Position numbers and translations under genes: made by a program. From Candidatus Cryptobacteroides faecipullorum (GTDB lineage: Bacteria > Bacteroidota > Bacteroidia > Bacteroidales > UBA932), in contig JADIMH010000065.1 in the NCBI GenBank assembly GCA_017694885.1, forward strand, positions 1 through 64,000: a stretch of DNA of 64,000 bases, in the 5' to 3' direction. Each line of letters begins with the position of its first letter. Within the stretch, counting starts at the first letter, position 1. This document shows, piece by piece, positions 1 to 38,605 of this stretch. The notes under the pieces are model-generated. The model was not told where the DNA came from. It worked only from the letters and a program-made list of their open reading frames with translations, and ran no database searches.

Positions 1-534
1 CTCCTGCACCACTTCGATCAGTTCCTGAGGTATCGATGCCATGGCCACTGCAATGACACCTTCGATCGCGATGACTACGCGCCTGTCACGTGCTCCCTTG
101 ACTTTGAGGAAGATTCCTTCGTACCCCTCGAATTCTCCGCCCGTAACCCTCACCCTGGTACCTTTGCTCAAATTCAGCTCGTCGGTCTTCAGATACAGCA
201 GGCGGTCGTCATATGAACCTGTCACCGCTATGAAGACCCGCATCTGCTCGTCCGGAACTATGATCTTCTCTCCTGCCCTGCGGTTCATCACATACTGCAG
301 GAACGGGATCTCGGACTTCAGGCGACGCATTATGGCATCAGTCGTATATATGAAAATAAAGTTATGGATTACCGGGACCAGTTCTTTTCTCTTTTTATCG
401 TATTTTTCCTTCACGACATAATGCATCGGAATAAAACTCAAGACCGACTCCTTGTCAAGCATTTCCTTGACCTTGAGTTCCCTTCCGTACGTCACATACA
501 TCGCATACCATACGGGTTTTCCTTTTGCGCCCAT
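1..534 (-). CDS. NusG-family (UpxY-like) transcription antitermination protein, C-terminus cut by the window edge
   Basis: Own minus-strand translation from ATG at 534: MGAKGKPVWYAMYVTYGRELKVKEMLDKESVLSFIPMHYVVKEKY...LNLSKGTRVRVTGGEFEGYEGIFLKVKGARDRRVVIAIEG. NGN-type N-terminus plus KOW-like motif. Runs off the left edge, so it is absent from the ORF track. Confidence 0.85.
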   Translation of the reverse strand, partial: MGAKGKPVWYAMYVTYGRELKVKEMLDKESVLSFIPMHYVVKEKYDKKRKELVPVIHNFIFIYTTDAIMRRLKSEIPFLQYVMNRRAGEKIIVPDEQMRVFIAVTGSYDDRLLYLKTDELNLSKGTRVRVTGGEFEGYEGIFLKVKGARDRRVVIAIEGVIAVAMASIPQELIEVVQE

Positions 535-1081: not shown

Positions 1082-2434
1082 TTACGCTTTTTTACCGAAT
1101 AAAGGATCAACTTTTATAAAACATGTGACTGCAACGGTCGCCAGGCAGCATACGATGACCATCCAGAAAAAGCCAGTGTACCCGAGCCATTCCTGAAGAT
1201 ACCCCGCCGCCATGCCCGGAAGCATCATGCTCAAGGCCATAAATGCAGTACAGAGTGAATAATGGGCTGTCTTGAATTCCCCTTGTGAAAAGTATATCAG
1301 ATAGAGCATGTAGGCCGTGAATCCGAATCCGTAGCCGAACTGCTCGATAAAGACGAAAAGATTGATGATGAAGAAGCCTGAAGGCTGAGCCATGCTCAGA
1401 TACACGAAAGTCAGGCACGGAAGGGTCATGCTTGCCGCCATGGGCCAGAGCGATTTTTTCAGGCCCCAGTGCGATGCCGCTACACCGCCGACTATACCTC
1501 CGAGCGTAAGCGCCGCCACCCCGACCGTCCCGTATACGATTCCGACGCTTTCCGTAGAAAGCCCCAGTCCGCCGGCTTCCCGGGGATCAAGCAGGAAAGG
1601 GTTCATCATTTTCACTAAAAATGCCTCAGGAAGGCGGTACAGCAACATGAAAAGTATAGCTATCCATACATGCTTTTTCCGGAAGAATGTCACGAACGTC
1701 CGGCCGAATTCACGCATGATTCCGGATACCGGACGCACACCGGGCAAACCGCCGGAAGCCTCGTTTCCGGCAGTTTGTCCGAAGGGGGATTCAACCTTCG
1801 GAAGAAGGAATGCATGATAAAGCGAAACCGCAGCGAAAAGTACCGCACACAGCACTAAGGTCACTGTCCATGCCTTCGGTACGTCACCGTAATGCGTCTC
1901 TAAAAGTCCGGCGATGACCACCAGGACACCCTGTCCGAAAATCGAGGCACACCTGTAGAAAGTGCTTCTTATCCCTACGAAAAACGACTGCTCCCTCTGA
2001 TCCAGGGCTATCATGTAATACCCGTCGGCGGCAATATCGTGGGTGGCCGATGCAAAGGCCGTAATCCAGAAAATGACCAGAGTCAACACGAAAAGCGATA
2101 CCGGTGCGTGCCCTTCCGATATGGTCTCCGAAGAGGGATGGGGAAGGGAAAACGCCGCCAGGGCGAATGTCACGGCTATAATGGCCTGCATGGCCAGTAT
2201 CCACCATCTCTTGGTCCTGATGATGTCCACGAAAGGGCTCCAGAGAGGCTTGACCGTCCACGGCAGATAAAGAAGTCCGGTATACATGGCGATATCCCCG
2301 TTGGACATGCCCATATTCTTGAACATGATCACCGATATGACATTCACTATGAAATACGGAATCCCTTCCGCAAAATACAGGGTAGGCACCCATGCCCATG
2401 GAGTCCTCCTTTTTTCTCCGAGACTTCTTTCCAT
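1082..2434 (-). CDS. AmpG-like MFS permease (muropeptide transporter family)
   Basis: Polytopic 450 aa; N-terminal WVPTLYFAEGIPYFIVNVISVIMFKNMGMSNGDIAMYTGLLYLPWTVKPLWSPFVD is typical of AmpG-type MFS proteins. Confidence 0.8.
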   Translation of the reverse strand: MERSLGEKRRTPWAWVPTLYFAEGIPYFIVNVISVIMFKNMGMSNGDIAMYTGLLYLPWTVKPLWSPFVDIIRTKRWWILAMQAIIAVTFALAAFSLPHPSSETISEGHAPVSLFVLTLVIFWITAFASATHDIAADGYYMIALDQREQSFFVGIRSTFYRCASIFGQGVLVVIAGLLETHYGDVPKAWTVTLVLCAVLFAAVSLYHAFLLPKVESPFGQTAGNEASGGLPGVRPVSGIMREFGRTFVTFFRKKHVWIAILFMLLYRLPEAFLVKMMNPFLLDPREAGGLGLSTESVGIVYGTVGVAALTLGGIVGGVAASHWGLKKSLWPMAASMTLPCLTFVYLSMAQPSGFFIINLFVFIEQFGYGFGFTAYMLYLIYFSQGEFKTAHYSLCTAFMALSMMLPGMAAGYLQEWLGYTGFFWMVIVCCLATVAVTCFIKVDPLFGKKA

Positions 2435-2452
2435 ACAGTCAGATATTTAAAA

Positions 2453-4921
2453 TCATGGCCGATAGAGCGTTTCCATTCCGTCACGCCTTTCCCGGAAGGC
2501 ATCCGAAACCTCTGCTCCCCTATAATAATGCGCCAGAATGTCCTTATAGCCGTATCCTTTCTCCGACATCACGGCCGCACCTATCTGACAGAGACCGACA
2601 CCGTGCCCCCATCCGCGTCCGGAAAGAACCACCCTGTCGAATGCGGCGACCGGTTTCCGGCCGGTTTTCCTGTAACAGGCCGCCTCTTTTGCTACGGCAT
2701 CGGCCGGCAGCATCATGCCTACAGAGTCATAATAAGACACCTCGAATGCAGAGCTCTTCAAATGGGTATCGGAAAGCACTTTCCTGATTTCAAGCTCTTT
2801 GCCTACCCTTACCGAACATCCTGTGCCGATTATCTCCAGCAGTGAAATCCTTCCCGAATCCCCTCTTTCAAGCGGAATCAAGGCAAGCAACTCCCCTATA
2901 TCGATTCCCAGTTTCCCGGAAATCAGGGAGGAGAGTTCCCTTCGGTCATATTCCGCCTTCCACTCGAAGAAATCCATTGTTTCCAGATCATAGTCATTCA
3001 GCACCTGGGTCAGGACAGACATGTCCGAAGTGTTGCAGAAATATCCCGTACACTGTTCCCCGACGGGTCCCGGAGCAGGACGGATCCCTGCCGCAGAGCA
3101 GGATTCAGGGGAATCCCCGACACTCTGCAGATACGGGAAGTCCTCATTTTCCCAGCAGACGGAAAATTTTTCCGTCCTGCCTCCGCAGCATTTGGAAAAT
3201 CTGGCGTCGCAGATCCTGCCGCCATAAGTCAGGACCTGTCCCCATGTAGCGTCTATTACTTTCCTGGCCTTGTTCCCGATAACCCGTGTCAGCCCCTGAT
3301 AACGCTGGCAATGGTCATCTGCACATACATCAAACAACTTATGGTCATCATGTCCGTACCACTTTATGTGCTCTACGGTATCGATCCATTCCCCTCTCTC
3401 CGATGCCGGATGCCTTTCCTTTTCACTGCCTTTCAATGAATCCAGCCATGTAACCACGGAAGGAAGGTTCTTTACCTCTTCAGGGAAACATCCCGATGCC
3501 TGACCGCCGTGCGCCGGATTCCCGTTACGCCGCCCTATCAGGGACATCACCCATGATCTGGAAATGACCGCATGCGCCTTTAGGAACTCTTCCGAGGCAG
3601 TGGACTTCATCTCAGAAGAAATCACGCTCAGAAGATAGTCCTCGACACCTATGACATTTACGGCAGTCAGAGCGTCTTTCTCGACGATTATCTTCAGGGC
3701 ACCTGCAAATTTCTGGTTTTCTTTCCTTTGCCAATGGAAACTGTTGCCTATAGTCACTCCGTACAGTATGAAAGCCGGCTCTGCGAACATCATCGACGGG
3801 GTCAGCGAGTCGAAATAAAGCTCATCATACAGAGCTCCGTCATATTCGATCTTGCCTCCGTTGAAAACCGCCTTTCTGGGACCGGCCCCGTCCGATATGA
3901 TCTCGAATTCTATCTCCTTTGCCGACATTATGCCCACGGACAGCATAGTCTGGCTCCTGGTAAGCCTCCACAGAAGAAGGCTTTCGGCCTCCTCGGACAT
4001 GGAGACCTCATCATAGACCTCTGCAAGGAGTTCAGGGGTCAGTTTGTCGAAGTCCTCCTGACGCGGCGTAACAATGACCCCGGCCATGTCCGCACATCCA
4101 GGACTTATCACCAGCCGGTCTTCATTATCCGAAAAATAATGGCTGGATCTGTGTGCAGCCCTGAATATCACTACCGAGCGGTATTCTCCTGCAGCGTACC
4201 AGGTCAGAAGGTTGAACATGGGTTCCTTCCCCTCTTCGGCAGCAGGGGCGCAGTCCAGCAGACGATAGAACATCTTGGCTGCGGACTTGGCCGTTGCGGC
4301 CCTTATTACGAATACACCGCGGATGAATTTCCTGTAACGGAACACTTCAGCATCCTGGACCGAAGAAAGGTATTCGAGATCGCTGTCCCTTATCGAATCC
4401 AGCATGCCGTCCACATCGCACTCGAGAGGCATCATGCCTCTCGATGCCGCCTGGAAATGGAAATGGTCGGGGGCCGATGCTCCGCAGCAGGGACCATTGT
4501 AGAATACGGTATATCCGCCAAGCGCCCTGGCCAGGTCGAGCATGTCCACATATCGTTTCCATATGCTCTGGTCTACGTGCCTGTCCGAGGCGATGACCAG
4601 ATGCCCTGGAAAAATCGGATACGGATTTACCAGAATGTCGTATTTTTTGGATTTCCTGCCCTCGAACCTGAGGCTGATCTGTCCGGCAGGCCTGTTTTCC
4701 CGGCACAGGAAACATCTGCGCTCTTTTATTGCCTTTTCAGACACATCCGCCGCCGAGGAAACGATCCTTGCCGGATTGAACTGTATCCGGACTTCCAGTC
4801 CGCCTATGGACACCGGCCTGATACGGGCATCCTTCAAAGCCCGGAAATTGTCGCAGGCCAGAGGCCATTGCGAGAGCTGGTCGTTTATGAATTTTTCTAT
4901 TGGCTTCCTACCGGTTTTCAT
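2453..4921 (-). CDS. DUF4922-like HIT/GalT-branch phosphorylase domain fused to a SpoIID/LytB domain
   Basis: N-terminal half has the HxHxQ motif (APDHFHFQAAS) and RRCFLCRENRPAGQ. C-terminal half has IGVEDYLLSVISSEM, VIDATWGQVLTYGG and GRGWGHGVGLCQIGA, which are SpoIID hallmarks. No N-terminal signal peptide. Confidence 0.82.
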   Translation of the reverse strand: MKTGRKPIEKFINDQLSQWPLACDNFRALKDARIRPVSIGGLEVRIQFNPARIVSSAADVSEKAIKERRCFLCRENRPAGQISLRFEGRKSKKYDILVNPYPIFPGHLVIASDRHVDQSIWKRYVDMLDLARALGGYTVFYNGPCCGASAPDHFHFQAASRGMMPLECDVDGMLDSIRDSDLEYLSSVQDAEVFRYRKFIRGVFVIRAATAKSAAKMFYRLLDCAPAAEEGKEPMFNLLTWYAAGEYRSVVIFRAAHRSSHYFSDNEDRLVISPGCADMAGVIVTPRQEDFDKLTPELLAEVYDEVSMSEEAESLLLWRLTRSQTMLSVGIMSAKEIEFEIISDGAGPRKAVFNGGKIEYDGALYDELYFDSLTPSMMFAEPAFILYGVTIGNSFHWQRKENQKFAGALKIIVEKDALTAVNVIGVEDYLLSVISSEMKSTASEEFLKAHAVISRSWVMSLIGRRNGNPAHGGQASGCFPEEVKNLPSVVTWLDSLKGSEKERHPASERGEWIDTVEHIKWYGHDDHKLFDVCADDHCQRYQGLTRVIGNKARKVIDATWGQVLTYGGRICDARFSKCCGGRTEKFSVCWENEDFPYLQSVGDSPESCSAAGIRPAPGPVGEQCTGYFCNTSDMSVLTQVLNDYDLETMDFFEWKAEYDRRELSSLISGKLGIDIGELLALIPLERGDSGRISLLEIIGTGCSVRVGKELEIRKVLSDTHLKSSAFEVSYYDSVGMMLPADAVAKEAACYRKTGRKPVAAFDRVVLSGRGWGHGVGLCQIGAAVMSEKGYGYKDILAHYYRGAEVSDAFRERRDGMETLYRP

Positions 4922-6350
4922 GAGTCGGGCCTCCCTTACCCCTGAGACGGGCTTCCAGTTCGCAGGTGCGGATCCAGTCCTTGTAGAAATTGTTGGAGTT
5001 AGTCTTTTCTATGCTGAGGGCCGCGTCCGAGTTCCCTTCCCATCTCCGGCAGCAGTACAGGACTTCATATATCCTGCCGATCCGGTATTCGCGGCTTATC
5101 CTGAGCCCCGCCGCATAATCTTCTCCGTAACTGGTATTGGGGAATCCCCCTATGCGCCTGAGAACAGGCACATAAAATGCTCTCGGGGCACCGAGCCCGT
5201 TGATTCTCAGGGCATTGTTCCTGCCATTATCAGGCGTCCACTCCCTATGGTCGATGACTCCAGGAGGAATGGGCTTCATGGCAAAGTCTGTCATCCGGTA
5301 TGAACCTACGACCATCGCACAGTCTTCTTCCCCGAACTTTGCGATGATCCTGGACAGAGTGTCCGGTCCGCTGTAGACATCGTCACTGTCCAGCTGGACA
5401 GCATATCTGCCGCAATATACGCTGTTTACCGCCAGATTCCAGCATCCGCCTATCCCCAGATCATCCCTTTCCGGAACCAGATGCACAAGTCTGTCTCCGC
5501 AGCCGGCTTTCATACGCTCGAGAACTTCCGTGGTTCCGTCGGTAGAATGGTTGTCGACTACGATTATATTGAAACTGAAGTCGCACTCCTGTGAAAGAGC
5601 GCTTCTGACCGCGTCTTCAATGGTTCTGACCCTGTTGAATACAGGTATGATCACTGAAGCCGTTACAGGGAATACCTCACCGGCTTCCTGGGGTTCGTTT
5701 TCCGCGACGCTTCTGAACACCGGTTCGAGACAGGCGCCGATACGTTTCAGGTATGCTGTACAGATCTGCTCCATTTCGATCTGCACCTGCCTGTTCTTCG
5801 GGTCTACATAATCGAAGATCTTTTCTCCCGACCTGCGATGGTCGGTCTCGGTTTCCGAGTACAGGAACTCGCTGACATGGACTATGCTTTTCATGTTCAG
5901 GCGCAGTTCATACAGCGCACCCCATTTACGCGGCTCCGTCATCAGGCCCACTGCCCTCCGGAAGGACCTGGTCCTGAATACCAGCACCGACCCGAAATCG
6001 AAGTCATCCCTCAATGCCCCTTTCTGGCAGTCTATCAGAGGATGTTTCCTTCCCTGGTCATAGTGGTCAGAATACAGCATGTCCGCTCCGGTATCTTCCG
6101 CGATCCTCACAAACCGGTCCAGGGCCAGATAACCCATCTCCAGCGGCTGCGCCTTGGTATAAAGCAGCAAATATTCAGATCTGGCCGCGTCCGCTATGGA
6201 CCGCAACGTTTCCGTAGCTCCGAAAGAGTGCTGCGGAATGACCGTAACTCCGTCGAAAGAGTCGCTGCCGGACAGGGACCCGAGAGTACAGGACATGTCC
6301 TGTTCGCACGGCATCGGTAAAATGAAGCATTCGATTCCTGGCATAATCAT
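4908..6350 (-). CDS. glycosyltransferase family 2 protein
   Basis: TASVIIPVFNRVRTIEDAVRSALSQ...NIIVVDNHSTDGT...YAVQLDSDDVY; GT-A motifs. Overlaps the next gene by 14 nt. Confidence 0.85.
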   Translation of the reverse strand: MIMPGIECFILPMPCEQDMSCTLGSLSGSDSFDGVTVIPQHSFGATETLRSIADAARSEYLLLYTKAQPLEMGYLALDRFVRIAEDTGADMLYSDHYDQGRKHPLIDCQKGALRDDFDFGSVLVFRTRSFRRAVGLMTEPRKWGALYELRLNMKSIVHVSEFLYSETETDHRRSGEKIFDYVDPKNRQVQIEMEQICTAYLKRIGACLEPVFRSVAENEPQEAGEVFPVTASVIIPVFNRVRTIEDAVRSALSQECDFSFNIIVVDNHSTDGTTEVLERMKAGCGDRLVHLVPERDDLGIGGCWNLAVNSVYCGRYAVQLDSDDVYSGPDTLSRIIAKFGEEDCAMVVGSYRMTDFAMKPIPPGVIDHREWTPDNGRNNALRINGLGAPRAFYVPVLRRIGGFPNTSYGEDYAAGLRISREYRIGRIYEVLYCCRRWEGNSDAALSIEKTNSNNFYKDWIRTCELEARLRGKGGPTHENR

Positions 6351-6422: not shown

Positions 6423-7022
6423 TCAGAGAAGGGCAAGAAGCCTGTCTTTGATCCTTACGAACTCTTGTTCAAAGTTAGGGGTCAGAACTGACTTGCCCAA
6501 ATTTTCTTCCACTTCTTCCATATCCCAGAAGCGTCCCTCGGCCACCTCCTCCATATCAGGGGACAGGATGAACGAACCGACCGCCGCAAATACATTGACA
6601 AGCTCTTTCTCTATCTCGGATTCGAAGACATAGGACCCAAGATAGACAGGATTGAATTCCTTCAGTCCGAGTTCTTCCGAGGCTTCCCTGTAAAGCGCTT
6701 CCAGCAATATTTCCCCATAATCTACATGACCTCCGACAGCGGTATCCCATTTCCCGGGCTGGATGTCCTTTTCCATGGACCTCTTCTGAAGATAAATCCG
6801 CCCGTACCTGTCCAGCACATGCAGATGCACTACGGGATGCAGGACTTTGGCTCCGCTGTGGCAGTATGAGCGCGAGGCTCTGGCCACCACTTCTCCCGTA
6901 GGCTCCACCACCGGGAACATCTCGGCTTTTGTCCCTGTCTCCGGACTTTCTGCATCGCACGCCCTTCTCGGCGGCAGTACAGGAGGCAGCCATGAAGGAT
7001 AGATCAGATCAAACATATTCAA
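6423..7022 (-). CDS. NUDIX hydrolase
   Basis: Nudix box GGHVDYGEILLEALYREASEELGL. Confidence 0.9.
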   Translation of the reverse strand: MNMFDLIYPSWLPPVLPPRRACDAESPETGTKAEMFPVVEPTGEVVARASRSYCHSGAKVLHPVVHLHVLDRYGRIYLQKRSMEKDIQPGKWDTAVGGHVDYGEILLEALYREASEELGLKEFNPVYLGSYVFESEIEKELVNVFAAVGSFILSPDMEEVAEGRFWDMEEVEENLGKSVLTPNFEQEFVRIKDRLLALL

Positions 7023-29405: not shown

Positions 29406-30977
29406 TTACCGGGCCCTGGCCGCGAGTTTGCTTTCTATCGGATCATGGTACTGGTCCTGAAGCCGTTTCAGCTCGGTCCTCAACTGTTCGGTTATCTCCT
29501 CATATCCTTCTTTCCCGTAGAGATTGTTCATTTCATGAGGATCGGACTGGAGATCATAGAGTTCCCAGCAGTCGATGTCGTTATAGAAATGCATGAGCTT
29601 CCATCTGTCGGTCCTTACCCCATAGTGCCGCTTTACCATATGCTCTGCAGGGTACTCATAAAAATGATAGTACAGAGACTGTCTCCAGTCCGACGGGTTC
29701 TCCCCTTTCAGAAGAGGAAGAAGAGAAACGCCCTGGATATCATCAGGGACAGGCGCTCCTGCCAGTTCAAGGAACGTAGGGGCATAGTCTATATTCTGGA
29801 CCATCTGTGAAATATCGCCTCTGGCCTTGAGCCCTTTCGGGAGCCTCATTACCAGCGGAGTCCGCATTGATTCCTCATACATGAACCTCTTGTCGAACCA
29901 GCCATGCTCACCCATATAGAATCCCTGGTCTGAAGTGTAGACGACAAGGGTGTTGTCCAGCAGACCTTTCTCCTCAAGATAATCCAGAACCCTGCCGATA
30001 TTGTCATCCAGAGACTTGACGACCTTTGCATAATCACGCATGTATCTCTGGAATTTCCATTCGGCGAGATCTTTCCCCTGCGGATTCTTCTCCTTGAATT
30101 CTTCGATTATCGGAGCATAGGCGTCATGATAGGTTTTCCTGTCTTCAGGAGAGAGCCTGTTTACCATATAACGGTAAGTGGATGCAAGAGGGGTATCGAT
30201 TCCTGTATCCATTTTCGTATCATAGACGATATCCATATCCTTCCATATGCTCATTTCCTGCGCTGCCGCCGCCTGACGCCCCTGATAGTCATCATAGAAG
30301 TTTTCCGGAAGATCGAATACGGTATCCTCGTACTCGTTCAGATACTTGAGGTCCGGGAGCCATGCCCTGTGACAGGCCTTATGGTGTATGAAAAGACAGA
30401 AAGGCTTGTCCTTGTCCCTCTTATTCTCGATCCAGTCTATTCCCTTGTCGGTAACGATATCTGTCACATATCCTTCTACGCGGACAGTATCATTATCCAT
30501 GGTTATGAAATCCGGATTATAATAATCGCCCTGGTTCGGAAGTATCTCCCAGTAATCGAATCCGGTAGGAAGCGATATCAGATGCCACTTGCCGACTATC
30601 GCCGTCTGATAGCCTGCCTTCTGAAGCAGTTTCGGCATAGTCTGCTGCGAGCCGTCGAAAATGCAGGTCGTGTTGTCGGTAAAACCGTTGGCATGGCTGT
30701 GCTTGCCTGTCAACATACATGCCCGGCTCGGGCCGCTGAGAGAATTGGCCACGAAACTGTTGACGAATTTCACGCCATCGGCGGCAATGCGGTCAAGGTT
30801 GGGCGTATGCACATTGGAGTCATCATAGCAGCTCATCATCTGGGCTGTATGATCATCGGTCATGATATAAACGATATTGTACCTGGTATCGGCCTTTTTG
30901 TCGGCCCCGCAGGAGGTAAGGGACAGCAGGACGGCCGTTCCTGAAAGGGTCTTGATAATGTTGATTCCGGTCATCAT
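29406..30977 (-). CDS. Ser-type sulfatase lipoprotein (S1 family; GlcNAc-6-sulfatase-like by context)
   Basis: NIVYIMTDDHTAQMMSCY...HTPNLDRIAADGVKF...SLSGPSRACMLTGKHSHANGF: sulfatase signature with Ser at the formylglycine position. Lipoprotein-type N-terminus. Confidence 0.9.
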   Translation of the reverse strand: MMTGINIIKTLSGTAVLLSLTSCGADKKADTRYNIVYIMTDDHTAQMMSCYDDSNVHTPNLDRIAADGVKFVNSFVANSLSGPSRACMLTGKHSHANGFTDNTTCIFDGSQQTMPKLLQKAGYQTAIVGKWHLISLPTGFDYWEILPNQGDYYNPDFITMDNDTVRVEGYVTDIVTDKGIDWIENKRDKDKPFCLFIHHKACHRAWLPDLKYLNEYEDTVFDLPENFYDDYQGRQAAAAQEMSIWKDMDIVYDTKMDTGIDTPLASTYRYMVNRLSPEDRKTYHDAYAPIIEEFKEKNPQGKDLAEWKFQRYMRDYAKVVKSLDDNIGRVLDYLEEKGLLDNTLVVYTSDQGFYMGEHGWFDKRFMYEESMRTPLVMRLPKGLKARGDISQMVQNIDYAPTFLELAGAPVPDDIQGVSLLPLLKGENPSDWRQSLYYHFYEYPAEHMVKRHYGVRTDRWKLMHFYNDIDCWELYDLQSDPHEMNNLYGKEGYEEITEQLRTELKRLQDQYHDPIESKLAARAR

Positions 30978-31013
30978 ATGTATGTTAACTGATTATTGCT
31001 GCAAATTTAACAG

Positions 31014-31053
31014 ACAAGCCGGCCATTCCGGAATCCGGAATGACCGGCCTTGT
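31014..31053 (-). terminator. very strong hairpin between susD-like and sulfatase genes
   Basis: ACAAGCCGGCCATTCCGG-aat-CCGGAATGACCGGCCTTGT, near-perfect ~18-bp stem with 3-nt loop. Confidence 0.65.
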
Positions 31054-31078
31054 CATAAGATCTGATTCCCAAAGCGGT

Positions 31079-32947
31079 TTACCAGCCAGGATTCTGCACC
31101 CACAGATTATTTGTAAGGGTGATCATACCATCTCTGATAGGAAGAAGATAATCCCTGTCTACTTTAAACTGATATCCGTTCGGAAGATTGCCGTAAGGAA
31201 TGATATACCTGAAGCCGTTTTCATCTGCTTCTGTCAGGAACAGGTTATTGTCCGCAGGCTGGTCATATCTGAGGGCATCGCCGTAGAATTCATTGCCCTC
31301 CAGATCACTGCCGGTAAATACCGCACCGGAAGGGGTATACCCTTTGATAAGAACATCGGCGGCAGCCCAGCGGAAGATGTCGTACATGCGCTTGCCTTCG
31401 CAGGCAAGTTCCACCCTGCGCTCGCGGCGTACAGCCTGGATGTATTTGTCATCGCCGCCAGCGACATTCATCATAGGGTAATCAGAATCACTGTTGAACT
31501 CCCTGTCGAAATCCACCTCAGGCATTCCTACACGGTCGCGCAGCGGTTTCAGCGCAGCCTTGATCCTCTCGGCATTGCCTGGTCCGTCAAGTTCTGCCAA
31601 TGCCTCGGCAAAGTTAAGCAGAGCTTCCGCATAACGGAACTGGATAGCCGGAGCCTGGCTCTTGTACTCTCCTTCTATCGTAGAGAGGTCTGCAGGATCT
31701 ATCTCCACATGTTTCAGAAGCGCATAGCCGGTAGCATTCGAGTGGTATGCCCCGGACGGGTCTCCCTGAAGCAACGGATATGTGAAAATAAACGCATTGC
31801 TCGGCTCTTCATCACCTGCGGTATTCGGACGCAGCTGCTGTCCCGGGATACAAACCGTCTGGGAAAGACGCGGGTCACGCACAGTAGGCTGAAGCTCTGT
31901 ACCGTACACCTTCTTTGCCTCTATTCTTTCTTCCTTGCTGTAAGGCTTTCCGTCTATAGTAAGATAATCGTCAACCAGGGATGCAGTGATGCCTTTCTGT
32001 CCGCCTCCGAGGTTCTGGAAACGTGTAACCGAATGGCCGATATTGTCCGCTATGTCATATTTCTTCCACCAAAGGACTTCCGGATTGGATGACAGATCGT
32101 ACGTTACGAAAAGGGACCTGTAATCGTCAAGGGTGTTTCCCGTACTGTAGATTCTCCATCTTCCGGCCTCTGCTCCGTCGATTATAGGAGCGACGGCATC
32201 GACTGCCTGCTGGAGATAGTCGTCGATCTTATCGTCTGTAACTTCAGGATCATAGAAAGCATCGTCTTTCAGCTTGTGGTATTTCTCCCATGTACCTTCA
32301 AACAGGGCGACTTCGCTCTTCAGTATGCGGGCCACATCCTTATGGACTCTCATCGAAGCGCTGCTCGACTGGGTCTGGAGATTCTCGATGGCCATATCGA
32401 GGTCTGCAAGAATCTTGTCAGCAATGAATGTCCTGCTGTCGCGAGGAAGCTGCAGCTGCTCCAGGTCCGGATCCATCACCTTGTCTATCCATGTGACTCC
32501 GCCGTAATCCTTGAGAAGGCCATAGTAATACCATGCCCTGAAGTAATAGGCTTCACCGACACACTGCTTATAGGCGGCATCCTCAGTCGAACCTGTGTAA
32601 TGGTCAAGGTTGTTCAGAAGGAAATTCACGGCCCTTATCCAGTCGTATGCCGTAAGTTCGGCTCCGTTGGAGACAGAAAGGGCGCCGTTCAGCCTGGTGT
32701 CTACAGAAGAATACACCATATTGTCGCTCTGAACGTCACCGAAAGCTATGCCGGTTCCGTTTACAGTAGAAGGATGACCGCGGAAAGCATTGTTATAGAA
32801 ATTGTTGAGATACTTTTCCATCTCTCCGGTAGTCCTGAATACAGTAGAGGTCGATATCACAACCTCCGGTTCCTTCTCCAGACTGAAGCAGCCTGTTACG
32901 GAAGGAAGCAACGCAAGACCTGCAAATAGAATATATATTTTTTTCAT
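31079..32947 (-). CDS. SusD/RagB-family nutrient-binding outer membrane lipoprotein
   Basis: Lipoprotein signal (LLPSVTGCFSLEKEP) and SusD hallmarks (AYKQCVGEAYYFRAWYYYGLLKDYGGVTWID...RYAEALLNFAEALAELDG...RRERRVELACEGKRMYDIFRW). Confidence 0.95.
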   Translation of the reverse strand: MKKIYILFAGLALLPSVTGCFSLEKEPEVVISTSTVFRTTGEMEKYLNNFYNNAFRGHPSTVNGTGIAFGDVQSDNMVYSSVDTRLNGALSVSNGAELTAYDWIRAVNFLLNNLDHYTGSTEDAAYKQCVGEAYYFRAWYYYGLLKDYGGVTWIDKVMDPDLEQLQLPRDSRTFIADKILADLDMAIENLQTQSSSASMRVHKDVARILKSEVALFEGTWEKYHKLKDDAFYDPEVTDDKIDDYLQQAVDAVAPIIDGAEAGRWRIYSTGNTLDDYRSLFVTYDLSSNPEVLWWKKYDIADNIGHSVTRFQNLGGGQKGITASLVDDYLTIDGKPYSKEERIEAKKVYGTELQPTVRDPRLSQTVCIPGQQLRPNTAGDEEPSNAFIFTYPLLQGDPSGAYHSNATGYALLKHVEIDPADLSTIEGEYKSQAPAIQFRYAEALLNFAEALAELDGPGNAERIKAALKPLRDRVGMPEVDFDREFNSDSDYPMMNVAGGDDKYIQAVRRERRVELACEGKRMYDIFRWAAADVLIKGYTPSGAVFTGSDLEGNEFYGDALRYDQPADNNLFLTEADENGFRYIIPYGNLPNGYQFKVDRDYLLPIRDGMITLTNNLWVQNPGW

Positions 32948-32958
32948 TGTCGTGATAA

Positions 32959-35900
32959 TTACAGATTAACGATAAGACCTACTGAATATATCCTGTTCAT
33001 AGGATAGTTCTTTCCTGCTTCTCCGTTGTAGCTGTTGCCCGTAAAGACGGCCTCAGGGTCGAACATCTTGGCCAGCTTGGTGAATGTCACGAGGTTGTCG
33101 CCGGAGAAATAGACCTGGAGTTTGGTAAGACCTATCTTCTTTATCATCTTCTGTGGGAAGTCATAGCTGAGGGTCAGGTTCTTGAGCCTGCAGTATGCAG
33201 CATTCTGAAGATAAAGGTCGCATGTCTGCTGGGTCTTGTTTGTGTACTGCGAAGTAGCGGCACCGGCAGCATTGATATAAGGTCTCGGATAGTAAGCATC
33301 CCTGTTGTCCTCGGTCCAATAGTCGAGATGCTGGGTAAAGACTGTAGTCTGAGCATAGGAACTTGCACCCCAGAAATACACTCCGCTCGGAGCCCAGTCG
33401 CGTTTCCCTACGCCCTGGAACATCACGCTCAGGGAGATTCCTTTCCATGAAAGCGAACCCTGGATAGTGTAGTTGTATCTTGGAGTAGTGCTGCCTATGA
33501 TTTCACGGTCGCCCATATCGTCCAGAGTATTGTTGCCGGTATCGATTCTTTCGTCTCCGTTCAGATTCTTATACTTCACGTCTCCAGGCTGCCATGGCTG
33601 GCTGGAAAGATAAGTAAGGTCGTAAGCGGCATTATAGGCATCGGCTTCTTCCTGGGTCTGGATAAGGCCGTCGGCGCGGTATCCCCAAATCTCGCCTACT
33701 TCACGTCCCTTATACCATGCACCGGCAGGGTTCGTTCCGGTAGGGTTCGAATATTCGGTAACTACAGCCGTAGCGTCATATACCGATCCGCCTATCGAGA
33801 AGTCCACTTCCTTGGCAATCTGGCCTCTATAGAGTACGGAGAACTCCCATCCGCGGTTACGCATGCAGGCATTGTTCGTCTGAGGAGGCGTAGCTCCGAA
33901 CATGTCAGGAAGTTCTTCTACAGGGCCGAGCATATCCCTCGTATCTCTCTGGAAGAACTCCAGGCTACCGGTCAGTCTGCCTTTGAACATGTTCCAGTCG
34001 AGGGCGATGTTCTTGCTGTCCACCTTTTCCCATGTAGTATTAGGGTTGACAACACCCGGAGCATAGAAATACATCTCGCGTCCGTTCTGGAAATACCAAC
34101 TGGTCTGCGCACCCGGGCTGATTGTAGAGGCAAAAGTATAAAGGGCGGCACCCGCCTGGTTTCCGAGCTGTCCCCATGAAGCTCTCAGCTTCAGTTCATC
34201 GAATATATGGTTTGCCGGCTCGAAGAAAGGCTCTCTGGCAATATTCCAGCCGACAGACACTGAAGGGAAGAAGCCCCAGCGGTTTCCTTTGGCAAATCTC
34301 GATGACCCGTCATAACGTGCGCTGAACTCAACCAGATACCTTCCGTCATAGTCATAATTGATACGGCCGAAGAAACCTCTTGTGGCCCAGCCGTTACGGG
34401 TCTCGGTCACCACTTTGTTGTCATCAGACATACCGAGATTAAGACCCGAGTTGGTGTATGTGGCAAGGTCGGTCGTATAACCGTACATGTAGTTATAGTC
34501 ATAATTTTCCTCCTGGAAACCTACTGTAGCGGCAAAGTTGTTCTTGCCTGCAGAGAAATTGTAGGAAGTATAGAGATTCAGGGACTGGTAACGGATTATA
34601 TCCATCTTTCTTGTGTAGGCGCCGTCTGCCACAACACCCATCTCGCCTCTGGTACCCTTGCTCGTAGTGACCCCGTCAAGTGCGTAGATATCAGGAGCCT
34701 GATTCATCGCCTTATAGTTCCAGTTATTCTGCTTATAGGTGTAATCAGCGAAAATCTTCCAGTTCTTCACAGGCTCGACTTCCAGACCGAGAGTAAAAAG
34801 GAAGTCATCGTCAAGACTGTTGGTGAATGTGCCGCTCTGGAGATAAGGCACCAGGGACAGCTCCGTGAAATGTCCGTTCGGATCCTTGTAATGGACAGTC
34901 GGGCGGAAACGGGCGAGAGAGTGGTAGAATCCTTCGGAAAGACCGCCGGAACCGAATGGAGTGTTGGTCTCCTGGTGGCTGTACTTGGCATTGAATTTAA
35001 GACGCAGCCATTTGGTAAGATCGGCATTGAGGTTTCCGTTGATATTGAACCTCTTGTAATCGATATCCGCATAACGGAGAATACCGTCTTCAGTATAGGC
35101 GCCGCCGGAAACATAGTAACGTACCTTGTCGGTTCCGCCGCTGAGACTCAGGTTGTGGTCCTGCTTGAAGGCGAAATTCTTATAGTGCAGATCGAAATAG
35201 TCTGTATTTCCGACACCGCTTTCAGAGTTTTCGAAAGCAGGATTCATCGATGAACCGGCAGGAAGCTCAGCCCAAGGGTCAACGCTTGAAGGGTTGTCTA
35301 TGAACTGCTGAAGCAATGCTATCTTTTCATCTGAATAAAGCCTGGTACTTCCCGTGTTCCTTACACCTTCGTTCCAGAAGTTGGCGAATTCAACGGAATT
35401 TGCCATGTCCGGAAGGACTGTAGGCTGCGTCCAGCCGAGGTTTCCGTGATAGCTGACCCTCATCTTGCCTTCTTCTCCGCTCTTGGTGGTCACGAGGATC
35501 ACACCGTATGCGGCGCGTGCTCCGTAGATGGCACTGGCGGAAGCATCCTTGAGGACTGAAATGCTCGCAACGTCGTTAGGATTCACATCTGAAAGGTCCA
35601 TTTCCACTCCGTCTACAAGGACATAAGGATTGGAAGTGCCCGACAGGTTACCTTGACCGCGGATCTGGAGAGTTCCCTTGGAACCAGGACGTCCCGAGTT
35701 GCTGTTGTTCACGGTAAGACCAGGAACAAGACCCTGCAGACTCTGCGTGATATTCGCGACAGGACGCATATCGAGGTCCTCTGATTCCACTGTAGAGACC
35801 GAACCGGTAAGGTTCACTTTCTTCTGAACACCGTAACCCACAACCACTACTTCGTCAAGGAAGTCCATAGAGGTACGGAGAAGGATATTCTGCGTAGCCT

Positions 35901-36195
35901 GGCCGTTCCATGTGATTTCCTGGGTATTGTATCCCAAAAGAGAAAATACGATAATGTCTCCCTGATTAAGACCAGAAAGAGTATAGCTTCCGTCGAAATC
36001 GGATGTAACTCCATTGTTGGTATCCTTTACAAAGACGGCGGCGCCCACTACCGGGCCGCTTTCATCTGTTATGACACCTGTAAGAGTTCCTGACCCCCCC
36101 TGAGCAAAAGCCTGAGGGGCGAAAACATTCAGGACAAGTGCAGACACGACGAATGCACAGACAAGCCTGAATGCAGACTTAATTTTTAGAAACAT
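32959..36195 (-). CDS. SusC/RagA-family TonB-dependent outer membrane transporter
   Basis: CarboxypepD_reg-like N-terminus (GTLTGVITDESGPVVGAAVFVKDTNNGVTSDFDGSYTLSGL), plug (LDEVVVVGYGVQKKVNLTGSVS), TonB-dependent barrel; directly precedes susD. Confidence 0.96.
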   Translation of the reverse strand: MFLKIKSAFRLVCAFVVSALVLNVFAPQAFAQGGSGTLTGVITDESGPVVGAAVFVKDTNNGVTSDFDGSYTLSGLNQGDIIVFSLLGYNTQEITWNGQATQNILLRTSMDFLDEVVVVGYGVQKKVNLTGSVSTVESEDLDMRPVANITQSLQGLVPGLTVNNSNSGRPGSKGTLQIRGQGNLSGTSNPYVLVDGVEMDLSDVNPNDVASISVLKDASASAIYGARAAYGVILVTTKSGEEGKMRVSYHGNLGWTQPTVLPDMANSVEFANFWNEGVRNTGSTRLYSDEKIALLQQFIDNPSSVDPWAELPAGSSMNPAFENSESGVGNTDYFDLHYKNFAFKQDHNLSLSGGTDKVRYYVSGGAYTEDGILRYADIDYKRFNINGNLNADLTKWLRLKFNAKYSHQETNTPFGSGGLSEGFYHSLARFRPTVHYKDPNGHFTELSLVPYLQSGTFTNSLDDDFLFTLGLEVEPVKNWKIFADYTYKQNNWNYKAMNQAPDIYALDGVTTSKGTRGEMGVVADGAYTRKMDIIRYQSLNLYTSYNFSAGKNNFAATVGFQEENYDYNYMYGYTTDLATYTNSGLNLGMSDDNKVVTETRNGWATRGFFGRINYDYDGRYLVEFSARYDGSSRFAKGNRWGFFPSVSVGWNIAREPFFEPANHIFDELKLRASWGQLGNQAGAALYTFASTISPGAQTSWYFQNGREMYFYAPGVVNPNTTWEKVDSKNIALDWNMFKGRLTGSLEFFQRDTRDMLGPVEELPDMFGATPPQTNNACMRNRGWEFSVLYRGQIAKEVDFSIGGSVYDATAVVTEYSNPTGTNPAGAWYKGREVGEIWGYRADGLIQTQEEADAYNAAYDLTYLSSQPWQPGDVKYKNLNGDERIDTGNNTLDDMGDREIIGSTTPRYNYTIQGSLSWKGISLSVMFQGVGKRDWAPSGVYFWGASSYAQTTVFTQHLDYWTEDNRDAYYPRPYINAAGAATSQYTNKTQQTCDLYLQNAAYCRLKNLTLSYDFPQKMIKKIGLTKLQVYFSGDNLVTFTKLAKMFDPEAVFTGNSYNGEAGKNYPMNRIYSVGLIVNL

Positions 36196-36234
36196 ATGAA
36201 TAACGGTTAGTTAGTTATTAAAGTGCTATTTCGA

Positions 36235-36258
36235 CAAATATAGTATTTTTTATACTAA
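36235..36258 (-). promoter_or_regulatory. -7-like TATATTTG overlapping dyad TAGTAT-TTTT-ATACTA upstream of susC
   Basis: CAAATATA at 36235-36242 (+), reads TATATTTG on -; adjacent palindrome tagtattttttatacta. No clear -33. Confidence 0.4.
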
Positions 36259-36283
36259 TTCCGAGAATTCGCTAAAAAAATAA

Positions 36284-38605
36284 TCAATCAACACCTATTT
36301 CATCTACAAAAAGGAAAGCCTTGCGTCCGGCTCCCGGATGCCAGGCCGGGAGTTCGGGAGTACATTTGCCGACGATGCGGACATATCTGGCAGGGGTTTC
36401 AGCAAATGATATCTCATATTTGTGAGGGACATTGTTCTTCGAGCCTTTTTCCAGCACAGGGAACCGGGCGGAGCCAGCCTTCCTGAAAGACTTTCCGTCT
36501 TCAGAGACATAGACCTCAAGGCCGGTAAGGCCGAAAATGAAATCTCCAGGCACGAGCATGGTATTGACGAAAGCAGTAGAAACCGTCTGATCGGACAACA
36601 GGTCGAAAGTCACGTCAAGATCCTGTCCGTAAATTCCGAGATATCTTCCGGAACGGTAACTGTCATCCCCGAACAGGCCGTCATTCATGATGGAAGCGCC
36701 TTTATAAGTGAACTGGGGGTCAGGCTCGCAGGAAAGTTCTATCGGACACATTGTAACCTTATTGGCCTTAAGGGTTTCGCTTACGGTCTCCGAATTCCTG
36801 CCGTTTCTAACCGCCACTGCCTTTATCACTGTCTCTCCGGATACGGTGAACGGTCCGGCATACTTTTCCGATGCAGATGAAGGGTCCGTGCCGTCAAGCG
36901 TATAATATACTGCAGCACCGTCAAATGTAGAAAGCGTGACTACCGCCTTGCCGGCTTCTCCTGAAGGAGCCAGGTCGATTACCGGATTTTCTATATCAGG
37001 CCTGTAATGCAGGCCCATAAGACGGTAAAGGTCCAGCTGGTGACGCAGCCTTGCGAGAAAATCCCCGAGATTCCTTCCGGAAGGGTCGGACCACTGGAGT
37101 TCGCTGAGCGCATCAATCCGGGGCATCATCTGCCACTCCATCTTGGTGCTGTCTTTGGTCCACTCAGTCCAGATGCAGGCCTGGACTCCGATAATGTTTT
37201 TCTTCTGTTCATCGGTAAGCTTGTCCGAAACAGGGTTGAAGTCATATACCCGCTGCACGCTCGAGACTCCTTTCAGACGGTTATACCCGGGATTGCTGAA
37301 ATACAGATGGCTTATAGGGCAGACGATGGTCTTGTGTCCGAGCCGTGCCGAACGTATGGAAGCATCCTCTCCCGTCCATGCCATTACAGTTACCGAAGTA
37401 TCGGGGTCGCCGTCGAGGATTTCATCCCATGCGAGCATCTTGCGTCCTCTCGATTCGATTTCCTTTTTCACTTCTCCCATGAACCACACCTGCAGCTGAT
37501 TCTCTTTAGTATGCTCCGGAGTATCTTTCAGGCCGAGCTCCCTGATCCTGGCCTGGCATACCGGACATTCTTTCCAGCGGGCTTTCGGACACTCGTCTCC
37601 GCCGATATGTATATATTCGGACGGGAAAATGTCCATAATCTCGGAAAGGACATCCTTTGCGAACTGCAGTGTCTGCTCTTTTCCCCCGCACAGGACTTCC
37701 TTGAATACGCCGAAACGGGTCTGGACTTCATATGGGCCGCCGGTACATCCGAGCTCGGGATATGCCGCCAGGGCCGCCATCATATGTCCCGGCATGTCCA
37801 CTTCAGGAATGACGGTTATGAAGCGCTCGGCTGCATAACGGACTATCTCCCTGGCCTCTTCCTGCGTATAGAATCCGCTGACCGGCACACCGTCGTATTT
37901 GCCGGATCCCGGTGCGGTGATCGTTTCCTTGCGGACAGATCCTATCTCGGTAAGTTTAGGGTATTTCTTGATCTCGATGCGCCATCCCTGGTCTTCGGTC
38001 AGATGCCAGTGGAAGTAATTGATGTTGTGCAGGGCCATCACATCGATAAGTTCTTTCAGATAATCGACAGAGAAGAAATGTCTGCCGACATCCACCATGA
38101 AGCCCCTGTAGCCGAATCTCGGGAAATCATACACCGATCCGGCAGGAACGGCAGGGCGCCCCCCTGTTTCTACAGTTATCGGCAGAGCCTTGTGGATAGT
38201 CTGCACGCCATAGAAAACGGCCGCTTCGCTCTGTCCTTCCACCGTTATCCGGTTTTCTGAAACATCAAGCCTGTACCCGTCTTTCTCCGGTATCGACTGA
38301 TCTATGCTTAAAATTATGGAATGTTTCCCCGGAGTATCGGAAAGCCTTACCTTTACGCCGGTCACTTCCTCAATATATGAAGCAAGGAATTCCGCTGTTC
38401 TGGCAAGCTTTTCATTATCTGCAGGATAGACAATCTCCGTCGAACGTGTTACTGCAAACGGAGCAGCGTCCTCCTTCTCTATCAGTACCTGTGGCTTCGG
38501 AATGACATCGAGGTCGCCGGTCACAGTGCCGCCATTTCCTGAACAGGAAAACAATACCGCAAGGAAAGCCCCTGCGGCCGCAATTCTGAGATGGGTTAAA
38601 TTCAT
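36284..38605 (-). CDS. GH20 beta-N-acetylhexosaminidase lipoprotein with C-terminal chitobiase-C and discoidin-like regions
   Basis: YFHWHLTEDQGWRIEIKKYPKLTEIGS; EYIHIGGDECPKARW catalytic Asp-Glu; VYYTLDGTDPSSASEKY (CHB_HEX_C-like). Confidence 0.94.
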   Translation of the reverse strand: MNLTHLRIAAAGAFLAVLFSCSGNGGTVTGDLDVIPKPQVLIEKEDAAPFAVTRSTEIVYPADNEKLARTAEFLASYIEEVTGVKVRLSDTPGKHSIILSIDQSIPEKDGYRLDVSENRITVEGQSEAAVFYGVQTIHKALPITVETGGRPAVPAGSVYDFPRFGYRGFMVDVGRHFFSVDYLKELIDVMALHNINYFHWHLTEDQGWRIEIKKYPKLTEIGSVRKETITAPGSGKYDGVPVSGFYTQEEAREIVRYAAERFITVIPEVDMPGHMMAALAAYPELGCTGGPYEVQTRFGVFKEVLCGGKEQTLQFAKDVLSEIMDIFPSEYIHIGGDECPKARWKECPVCQARIRELGLKDTPEHTKENQLQVWFMGEVKKEIESRGRKMLAWDEILDGDPDTSVTVMAWTGEDASIRSARLGHKTIVCPISHLYFSNPGYNRLKGVSSVQRVYDFNPVSDKLTDEQKKNIIGVQACIWTEWTKDSTKMEWQMMPRIDALSELQWSDPSGRNLGDFLARLRHQLDLYRLMGLHYRPDIENPVIDLAPSGEAGKAVVTLSTFDGAAVYYTLDGTDPSSASEKYAGPFTVSGETVIKAVAVRNGRNSETVSETLKANKVTMCPIELSCEPDPQFTYKGASIMNDGLFGDDSYRSGRYLGIYGQDLDVTFDLLSDQTVSTAFVNTMLVPGDFIFGLTGLEVYVSEDGKSFRKAGSARFPVLEKGSKNNVPHKYEISFAETPARYVRIVGKCTPELPAWHPGAGRKAFLFVDEIGVD

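Follow-up and report, generated by a model that had tools for sequence, protein, structure and literature searches.

A conserved ampG-linked module with a leaderless SpoIID protein as a candidate for peptidoglycan recycling in Bacteroidales

Results

Gene organization of the locus

The window analysed here, a stretch of 64,000 nucleotides from Candidatus Cryptobacteroides faecipullorum, opens contig C57 of a draft genome (G000; 2.43 Mb, 91% complete). Re-derivation of its open reading frames revealed three closely packed minus-strand genes encoding an AmpG-type permease (450 aa), a DUF4922::SpoIID fusion (822 aa) and a two-domain GT2 protein (480 aa), and reproduced the tight packing described in an initial annotation of this DNA, with a 14-nt overlap at 4908–4921 and an 18-nt gap at 2435–2452. 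Since the identical gene order was found again in dozens of genomes, the operon arrangement is not a matter of chance. The features of the locus are as follows.

1082–2434, minus strand: putative AmpG-type muropeptide permease (MFS), by TIGR00901 (E 8.4e-50, below the curated cut-off) and MFS_1, in the position of the functional Tannerella forsythia ampG (PMC5388701)
2453–4921, minus strand: DUF4922::SpoIID fusion, 822 aa, without signal peptide, by profiles and an AF2 model
4445–4891, minus strand: DUF4922 domain, residues 11–159, first HIT-type half (PF16269, E 1.4e-56)
4451–4468, minus strand: HxHxQ motif DHFHFQ, residues 152–157, aligned to DHKHLQ of yeast Apa2
3962–4384, minus strand: second half of the Apa2/GalT-like unit, approximately residues 180–320 (Foldseek Apa2 4i5t, 333 columns, E 2.2e-10; limits approximate)
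2498–3769, minus strand: SpoIID domain, approximately residues 385–808 (PF08486, TIGR02669; Foldseek 5i1t, E 2.8e-12, target TM 0.73)
3611–3613, minus strand: predicted SpoIID catalytic Glu437, aligned to C. difficile E101
3308–3343, minus strand: predicted Zn-site residues H527, C533, H537 and C538 (C. difficile H134, C140, H145 and C146), by alignment and conservation
2576–2620, minus strand: C-terminal SpoIID signature GRGWGHGVGLCQIGA, residues 768–782, by motif match and conservation
4908–6350, minus strand: GT2 protein with tandem GT-A domains (PF00535, E 3e-19; AF2 model; Foldseek match over the whole length to 2z86, K4 chondroitin polymerase, E 6.5e-20)
5043–5660, minus strand: predicted catalytic GT2 domain, residues 231–436, with DSDD and GED motifs (L320–D324 and G409-E410-D411 invariant in 36 sequences)

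Upstream of the operon, Pfam identified same-strand genes for NUDIX, DUF6064, ThrE-type and Asp-Al_Ex proteins. The NUDIX hydrolase gene (6423–7022, minus strand) adjoins the operon, and a homologue lies beside or near the module in 24 scanned loci, including some from which GT2 has moved away. Downstream of ampG, a NusG-like antiterminator gene, possibly of UpxY type (1–534, minus strand), is cut by the contig start, beyond which a polysaccharide locus may continue. NamZ does not follow ampG in the window, though it does in relatives of the same genus. Farther away, the region 29406–38605 (minus strand) encodes sulfatase-, SusD- and SusC-like proteins, as read from sequence, and a GH20 hexosaminidase identified by Pfam, and resembles a glycan utilisation locus. 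Promoter- and terminator-like signals in the window were no better than in shuffled sequences, and the only RNA family found there was tRNA.

Domains and conserved residues of the three proteins

Profile searches bore out the two-domain fusion proposed in the initial annotation: the 822-aa protein contains a full DUF4922 and a SpoIID domain, both over curated cut-offs (PF08486: E 3.8e-20, 72.7 bits against 23; TIGR02669: 159.6 bits against 83.3), as well as the two motifs named there, DHFHFQ and GRGWGHGVGLCQIGA. Structure prediction, which had been suggested for both domains, agreed with this assignment. A Foldseek search with an AlphaFold model built from a 52-sequence alignment (pLDDT 86.5, pTM 0.84) matched the N-terminal part to the yeast Ap4A phosphorylase Apa2, GalT (E 1.6e-5) and ADP-glucose phosphorylase (E 9.7e-5), and the C-terminal part to the SpoIID proteins of C. 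difficile and B. anthracis. The DUF4922 unit possesses both the tandem HIT-type fold and the HxHxQ motif that mark phosphorylases and transferases of the HIT superfamily, and a sequence search linked it to Apa2 at E 5e-6, pairing HxHxQ with DHKHLQ. The literature search on DUF4922 turned up only plant GGP papers.

The catalytic residues, whose possible loss the initial annotation had raised, are kept in both domains. Among the 52 homologues, H153, H155 and Q157 of the HxHxQ motif are invariant, as are E437 of SpoIID (aligned to E101/E88) and the Zn ligands H527, C533 and C538, with H537 nearly so, as in C. difficile. E101 is essential in the C. difficile protein (PMC6221140). Members of the SpoIID family make 1,6-anhydroMurNAc ends; a SpoIID of Chlamydiales can also work with water, as a muramidase on denuded glycans (PMC6635528).

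The permease scored 169.6 bits against the AmpG subfamily profile, below its cut-off of 350; the functional AmpG of T. forsythia itself shares just 27% identity with the E. coli protein (PMC7670621). By analogy, the window permease would be a muropeptide importer. The GT2 domain reached 70 bits against PF00535, and the model of this protein (pLDDT 89.8) resembles, along its full length, the two-domain K4 chondroitin polymerase. In its C-terminal GT-A domain, DSDD and GED occur without exception in 36 sequences, and represent the DxD and ED motifs expected of a GT2 domain; the N-terminal GT-A domain has no obvious DxD in our own reading of the sequence.

Absence of leaders in ampG-linked SpoIID proteins

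The fusion had been described as lacking a signal peptide, and this holds. The protein begins with MKTGRKPIEKFINDQLSQ, no earlier start codon is present in the frame, and DUF4922 is already complete from residue 11, leaving no room for a signal peptide. A hydropathy scan found a hydrophobic leader in none of the ampG-linked SpoIIDs, including those encoded by separate genes, which begin with the domain's first strand. Clear leaders were found in the SpoIIDs of G001, G009, G025 and G048, which are distant and have no AmpG match nearby. The scan thus gave no sign of the export that would have spoken against the initial annotation. The signal peptide or membrane anchor for export that characterizes SpoIID/LytB proteins is lacking in the fusion, which, judged by its sequence, has a SpoIID domain yet is not a canonical exported SpoIID.

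Distribution, linkage and fusion states

A genome scan yielded 572 confirmed relatives, of which the best 80 loci, ranked by match to a query derived from the fusion, were kept; the linkage fractions describe this sample, with neighbours identified by tblastn and NamZ also by Pfam. Record titles among the scanned loci include Bacteroides, Phocaeicola, Prevotella, Dysgonomonas, Geofilum, Muribaculaceae, Candidatus Cryptobacteroides and other Bacteroidales. Among the best 80 of 572, the gene immediately downstream is ampG in 70 of the 75 loci with enough sequence, mostly Bacteroidales, GT2 either precedes directly or is fused in 57/78, and NamZ is located at most 3.2 kb downstream in 43/66. The synteny survey suggested in the initial annotation, which had treated a lack of conserved ampG linkage as evidence against its reading, accordingly revealed that this linkage is conserved, with NamZ following in many loci. 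MurT-like and MurK-like genes also occur near the module in the neighbourhoods inspected.

The components occur in three states: as separate genes (Bacteroides and others), as DUF4922::SpoIID (the window and its kin), and as a GT2::DUF4922::SpoIID triple fusion in 20 Prevotella-type loci of the best 80 of 572, confirmed by Pfam on L090. On the SpoIID tree the triple-fusion loci form a single clade, and a minimum of two changes on starred branches is required to explain the double fusion. Two tandem ampG-like genes follow the triple fusion in three loci (L075, L078 and L085).

In several genomes (G015, G016, G022, G034, G041, G052 and G058), DUF4922 is lacking while GT2 and a leaderless SpoIID are encoded; AmpG directly follows SpoIID in all of them except G015, and some DUF4922-less relatives keep the order GT2-SpoIID-AmpG-NamZ. 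An essential role of DUF4922 was rejected, since loci L097–L103 keep the module without it; DUF4922 is accessory and dispensable. Loss of GT2 in the clade with non-adjacent GT2 was also rejected, as GT2 is encoded elsewhere in 15/17 genomes. Because DUF4922 is missing in some relatives and GT2 is usually found elsewhere if not adjacent, the constant core consists of GT2, the leaderless SpoIID and AmpG, with the exception that GT2 and DUF4922 are each missing beside SpoIID in some clades.

Other arrangements were also observed. The fusion at L114 (G047) has neither AmpG nor GT2 nearby and sits on a long tree branch, and is possibly a decaying or diverging copy. L116 / L133 (G289) encodes an 826-aa GT2::DUF4922 fusion without SpoIID or AmpG after it, their place being taken by a pair of minus-strand genes, of which one encodes an ATP-binding motif. 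In Bacteroides-type loci (L057, L058, L061, L062, L065, L088 and L115), a protein of approximately 1000 aa and a metallophosphoesterase with PQQ repeats are encoded upstream of GT2; the former, which looks like an Amidase_3 relative, matched Golvesin_C by Pfam on L065 and is named xanthan lyase in T. forsythia.

Recycling enzymes in genomes carrying the module

AnmK was found in 6 of the 45 carriers from the scan and was missing in 39, and MurQ scored at least 240 bits in about 25 of these 45 genomes. A draw across the phylum yielded AnmK in 16/37 genomes with a strong DUF4922 match versus 157/211 without one (Fisher p 3e-4, ignoring kinship), and a draw within the family in 19/41 carriers versus 15/19 non-carriers (p 0.025, ignoring kinship). 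The carriers that keep AnmK in the two draws make strict replacement of AnmK by the module too strong a claim. Most genomes are drafts or MAGs and profile searches can miss diverged enzymes, so absence is not proof; for these reasons, and because many genomes have AnmK as well as the module, replacement is to be understood as probabilistic. Both AnmK and MurQ were missing in 13 family-draw carriers, including all four genomes of the window's genus (G000, G023, G042 and G059; profile search), three of which are 99–100% complete. The absence of AnmK from most carriers makes the module a good candidate for the recycling step that they lack.

Inspection of GH3 proteins, which in G023 and G042 covered some of them, revealed none carrying the NagZ motif in G000 or G059, and no GH3 of any kind was found in G017, G054, G006, G047 or G016. 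Leaders are present at the start of the NagZ-motif GH3s of G012, G019, G038, G289 and G297, and also of RmNag3 from Rhodothermus (PMC6987092). There is no support for GH20 as the cytosolic GlcNAc-releasing enzyme, since nearly all starts inspected carry leaders (those at L174 and L176 are ambiguous); G016 has neither GH20 nor GH3. An AmgK-like kinase adjoins a MurU-like transferase in G000 (on C37), G023, G042, G059 and G017, with a presumed specificity, as the families are broad (APH, NTP_transferase).

Discussion

The closest described counterpart is the ampG operon of T. forsythia, Tanf_08345-08385, with the order gtf, gtf, lytB, ampG, ybbC, murT, murK, murQ (PMC5388701). Its gtf, gtf, lytB (‘amidase enhancer’), ampG and ybbC (namZ) parallel GT2, DUF4922, SpoIID, AmpG and NamZ of Bacteroides loci, and judging from this order one ‘gtf’ would be DUF4922. 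AmpG activity was demonstrated in T. forsythia (PMC5388701, PMC7670621); lytB and gtf are uncharacterised and named just in a figure legend (PMC5388701). Unlike T. forsythia, in which the genes are listed separately and murT-murK-murQ come next, the window has DUF4922 and SpoIID fused and no namZ after ampG, and MurQ and AnmK were not found in its genus. The literature searched describes the operon from a single organism and contains no study of its central enzymes (SpoIID/LytB and gtf).

With the AmpG-NagZ-AnmK-MurQ pathway of E. coli the window shares the putative AmpG-type importer, whereas its genus is without AnmK and MurQ, and the inspected genomes contain the SpoIID/GT2/DUF4922 module, presumably cytosolic, instead of any NagZ-motif GH3 that we could see. 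The AmpG-type importer and AmgK/MurU-like genes are common to the AmgK-MurU route of Pseudomonas and Caulobacter (PMC13046382). The fusion resembles the SpoIID/LytB proteins of Bacillus, Clostridioides and Chlamydiales in fold, catalytic Glu and Zn residues, but differs from them in having no signal peptide or membrane anchor, in being joined to nucleotide-sugar type enzymes and in its ampG linkage. Similarly, the DUF4922 unit shares the two-half fold and HxHxQ motif with Apa2, GalT and ADP-glucose phosphorylase, yet is approximately 16% identical to Apa2 and fused to SpoIID, and the GT2 protein has the tandem GT-A domains of K4 chondroitin polymerase without an obvious DxD in the N-terminal one.

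The cytosolic location of the SpoIID module and its ampG linkage are well supported. Apart from the missing leaders, fusion of SpoIID to GT2 and to an Apa2-like unit, both needing cytosolic substrates, argues independently for the cytosol, and the triple fusion supports a cytosolic module by tying SpoIID to GT2, which would be expected to depend on NDP-sugars of the cytosol. It is thus likely that the module acts on imported fragments in the cytosol. This agrees with the initial annotation on location and recycling context; its proposal that SpoIID is coupled to nucleotidyl chemistry is weakened by the accessory nature of DUF4922. Our best overall reading, to which we assign a probability of roughly 0.55, is that of a cytosolic module for the processing of peptidoglycan disaccharides after import, which probably opens 1,6-anhydroMurNAc without AnmK. 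T. forsythia grows on GlcNAc-anhMurNAc via AmpG with no AnmK predicted, and the route was stated to be open (PMC7670621).

We infer the reactions of the module to run as follows. AmpG would import GlcNAc-anhMurNAc and GlcNAc-MurNAc of periplasmic origin, as shown in T. forsythia. The leaderless SpoIID, with Glu437, may then open the 1,6-anhydro ring of GlcNAc-anhMurNAc in AnmK's stead; SpoIID is the best candidate for this step because its family makes anhydro ends and the chlamydial member can use water (PMC6635528), and we put this assignment forward tentatively. More speculatively, the bond between GlcNAc and MurNAc might be the target of GT2, which could run backwards with UDP and yield UDP-GlcNAc plus MurNAc; the NDP-sugar might be handled by the DUF4922 unit with its HxHxQ phosphorylase/transferase fold. 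AmgK and MurU, whose genes are present and whose reaction is known elsewhere, would finally turn MurNAc into UDP-MurNAc. Since UDP-GlcNAc is usable directly, the dispensability of DUF4922 fits such a splitting scheme. Running a GT2 backwards is thermodynamically unfavourable, however, and we regard the reverse scheme as improbable. We know of no SpoIID that acts on disaccharides, which counts against the best reading. The broadest version, in which GT2, the Apa2-like phosphorylase and the leaderless SpoIID (one chain in Prevotella-type bacteria) form a cytosolic enzyme machine not described before and replacing NagZ/AnmK across Bacteroidales, opening 1,6-anhydroMurNAc and splitting GlcNAc-MurNAc with conservation of the bond energy, appears unlikely, if somewhat less so than the reverse scheme.

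The intact GT2 motifs, a tandem GT-A fold akin to soluble alternating-sugar polymerases and a conservation of GT2 equal to that of SpoIID would also suit a biosynthetic use, with GT2 building on imported GlcNAc-(anh)MurNAc with NDP-sugars, DUF4922 feeding or clearing the nucleotide sugar and SpoIID trimming or transferring the product as a transglycosylase. We consider such repurposing rather unlikely, as the neighbourhoods inspected contain no conserved lipid carrier, flippase or export gene, the nearby NamZ, MurT-like and MurK-like genes point to salvage, and T. forsythia takes the imported sugar as a MurNAc source (PMC7670621). Somewhat less probable still is that the cytosolic SpoIID merely shortens longer imported oligosaccharides as an ordinary muramidase or lytic transglycosylase and leaves anhMurNAc to other enzymes: this is the known SpoIID activity (PMC6635528, PMC6221140) and the active site is conserved, but T. 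forsythia AmpG imports mainly disaccharides, which have no MurNAc-GlcNAc bond (PMC7670621), and AnmK-less carriers would still have their gap.

Two further explanations we consider very improbable. Export by an unconventional route would make the protein periplasmic like other SpoIIDs, and those characterised do act outside the cytoplasm (PMC6635528, PMC6221140); against this, no linked homologue has a leader, and the protein is fused to GT2 and an Apa2-like enzyme needing cytosolic substrates. Equally doubtful is that the permease has no part in muropeptide import and that the grouping means something else, with SpoIID, for example, as a binding or regulatory domain. The TIGR00901 score under the curated cut-off would allow this, but the corresponding operon of T. 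forsythia has a functional permease (PMC5388701, PMC7670621), NamZ is often a neighbour and the SpoIID catalytic residues are invariant.

Returning to the preferred reading of a cytosolic recycling module, the conserved ampG-linked SpoIID offers a concrete, testable answer to the GlcNAc-anhMurNAc question in T. forsythia (PMC7670621). The titles and passages of the literature on SpoIID with recycling, AnmK or ampG contained no cytosolic SpoIID; if the reading is true, this would be, as far as the literature searched shows, the first SpoIID working in the cytoplasm, and it would give DUF4922 a role. The carriers include abundant gut and oral bacteria, in which the module would bear on the fate of peptidoglycan fragments sensed by their hosts.
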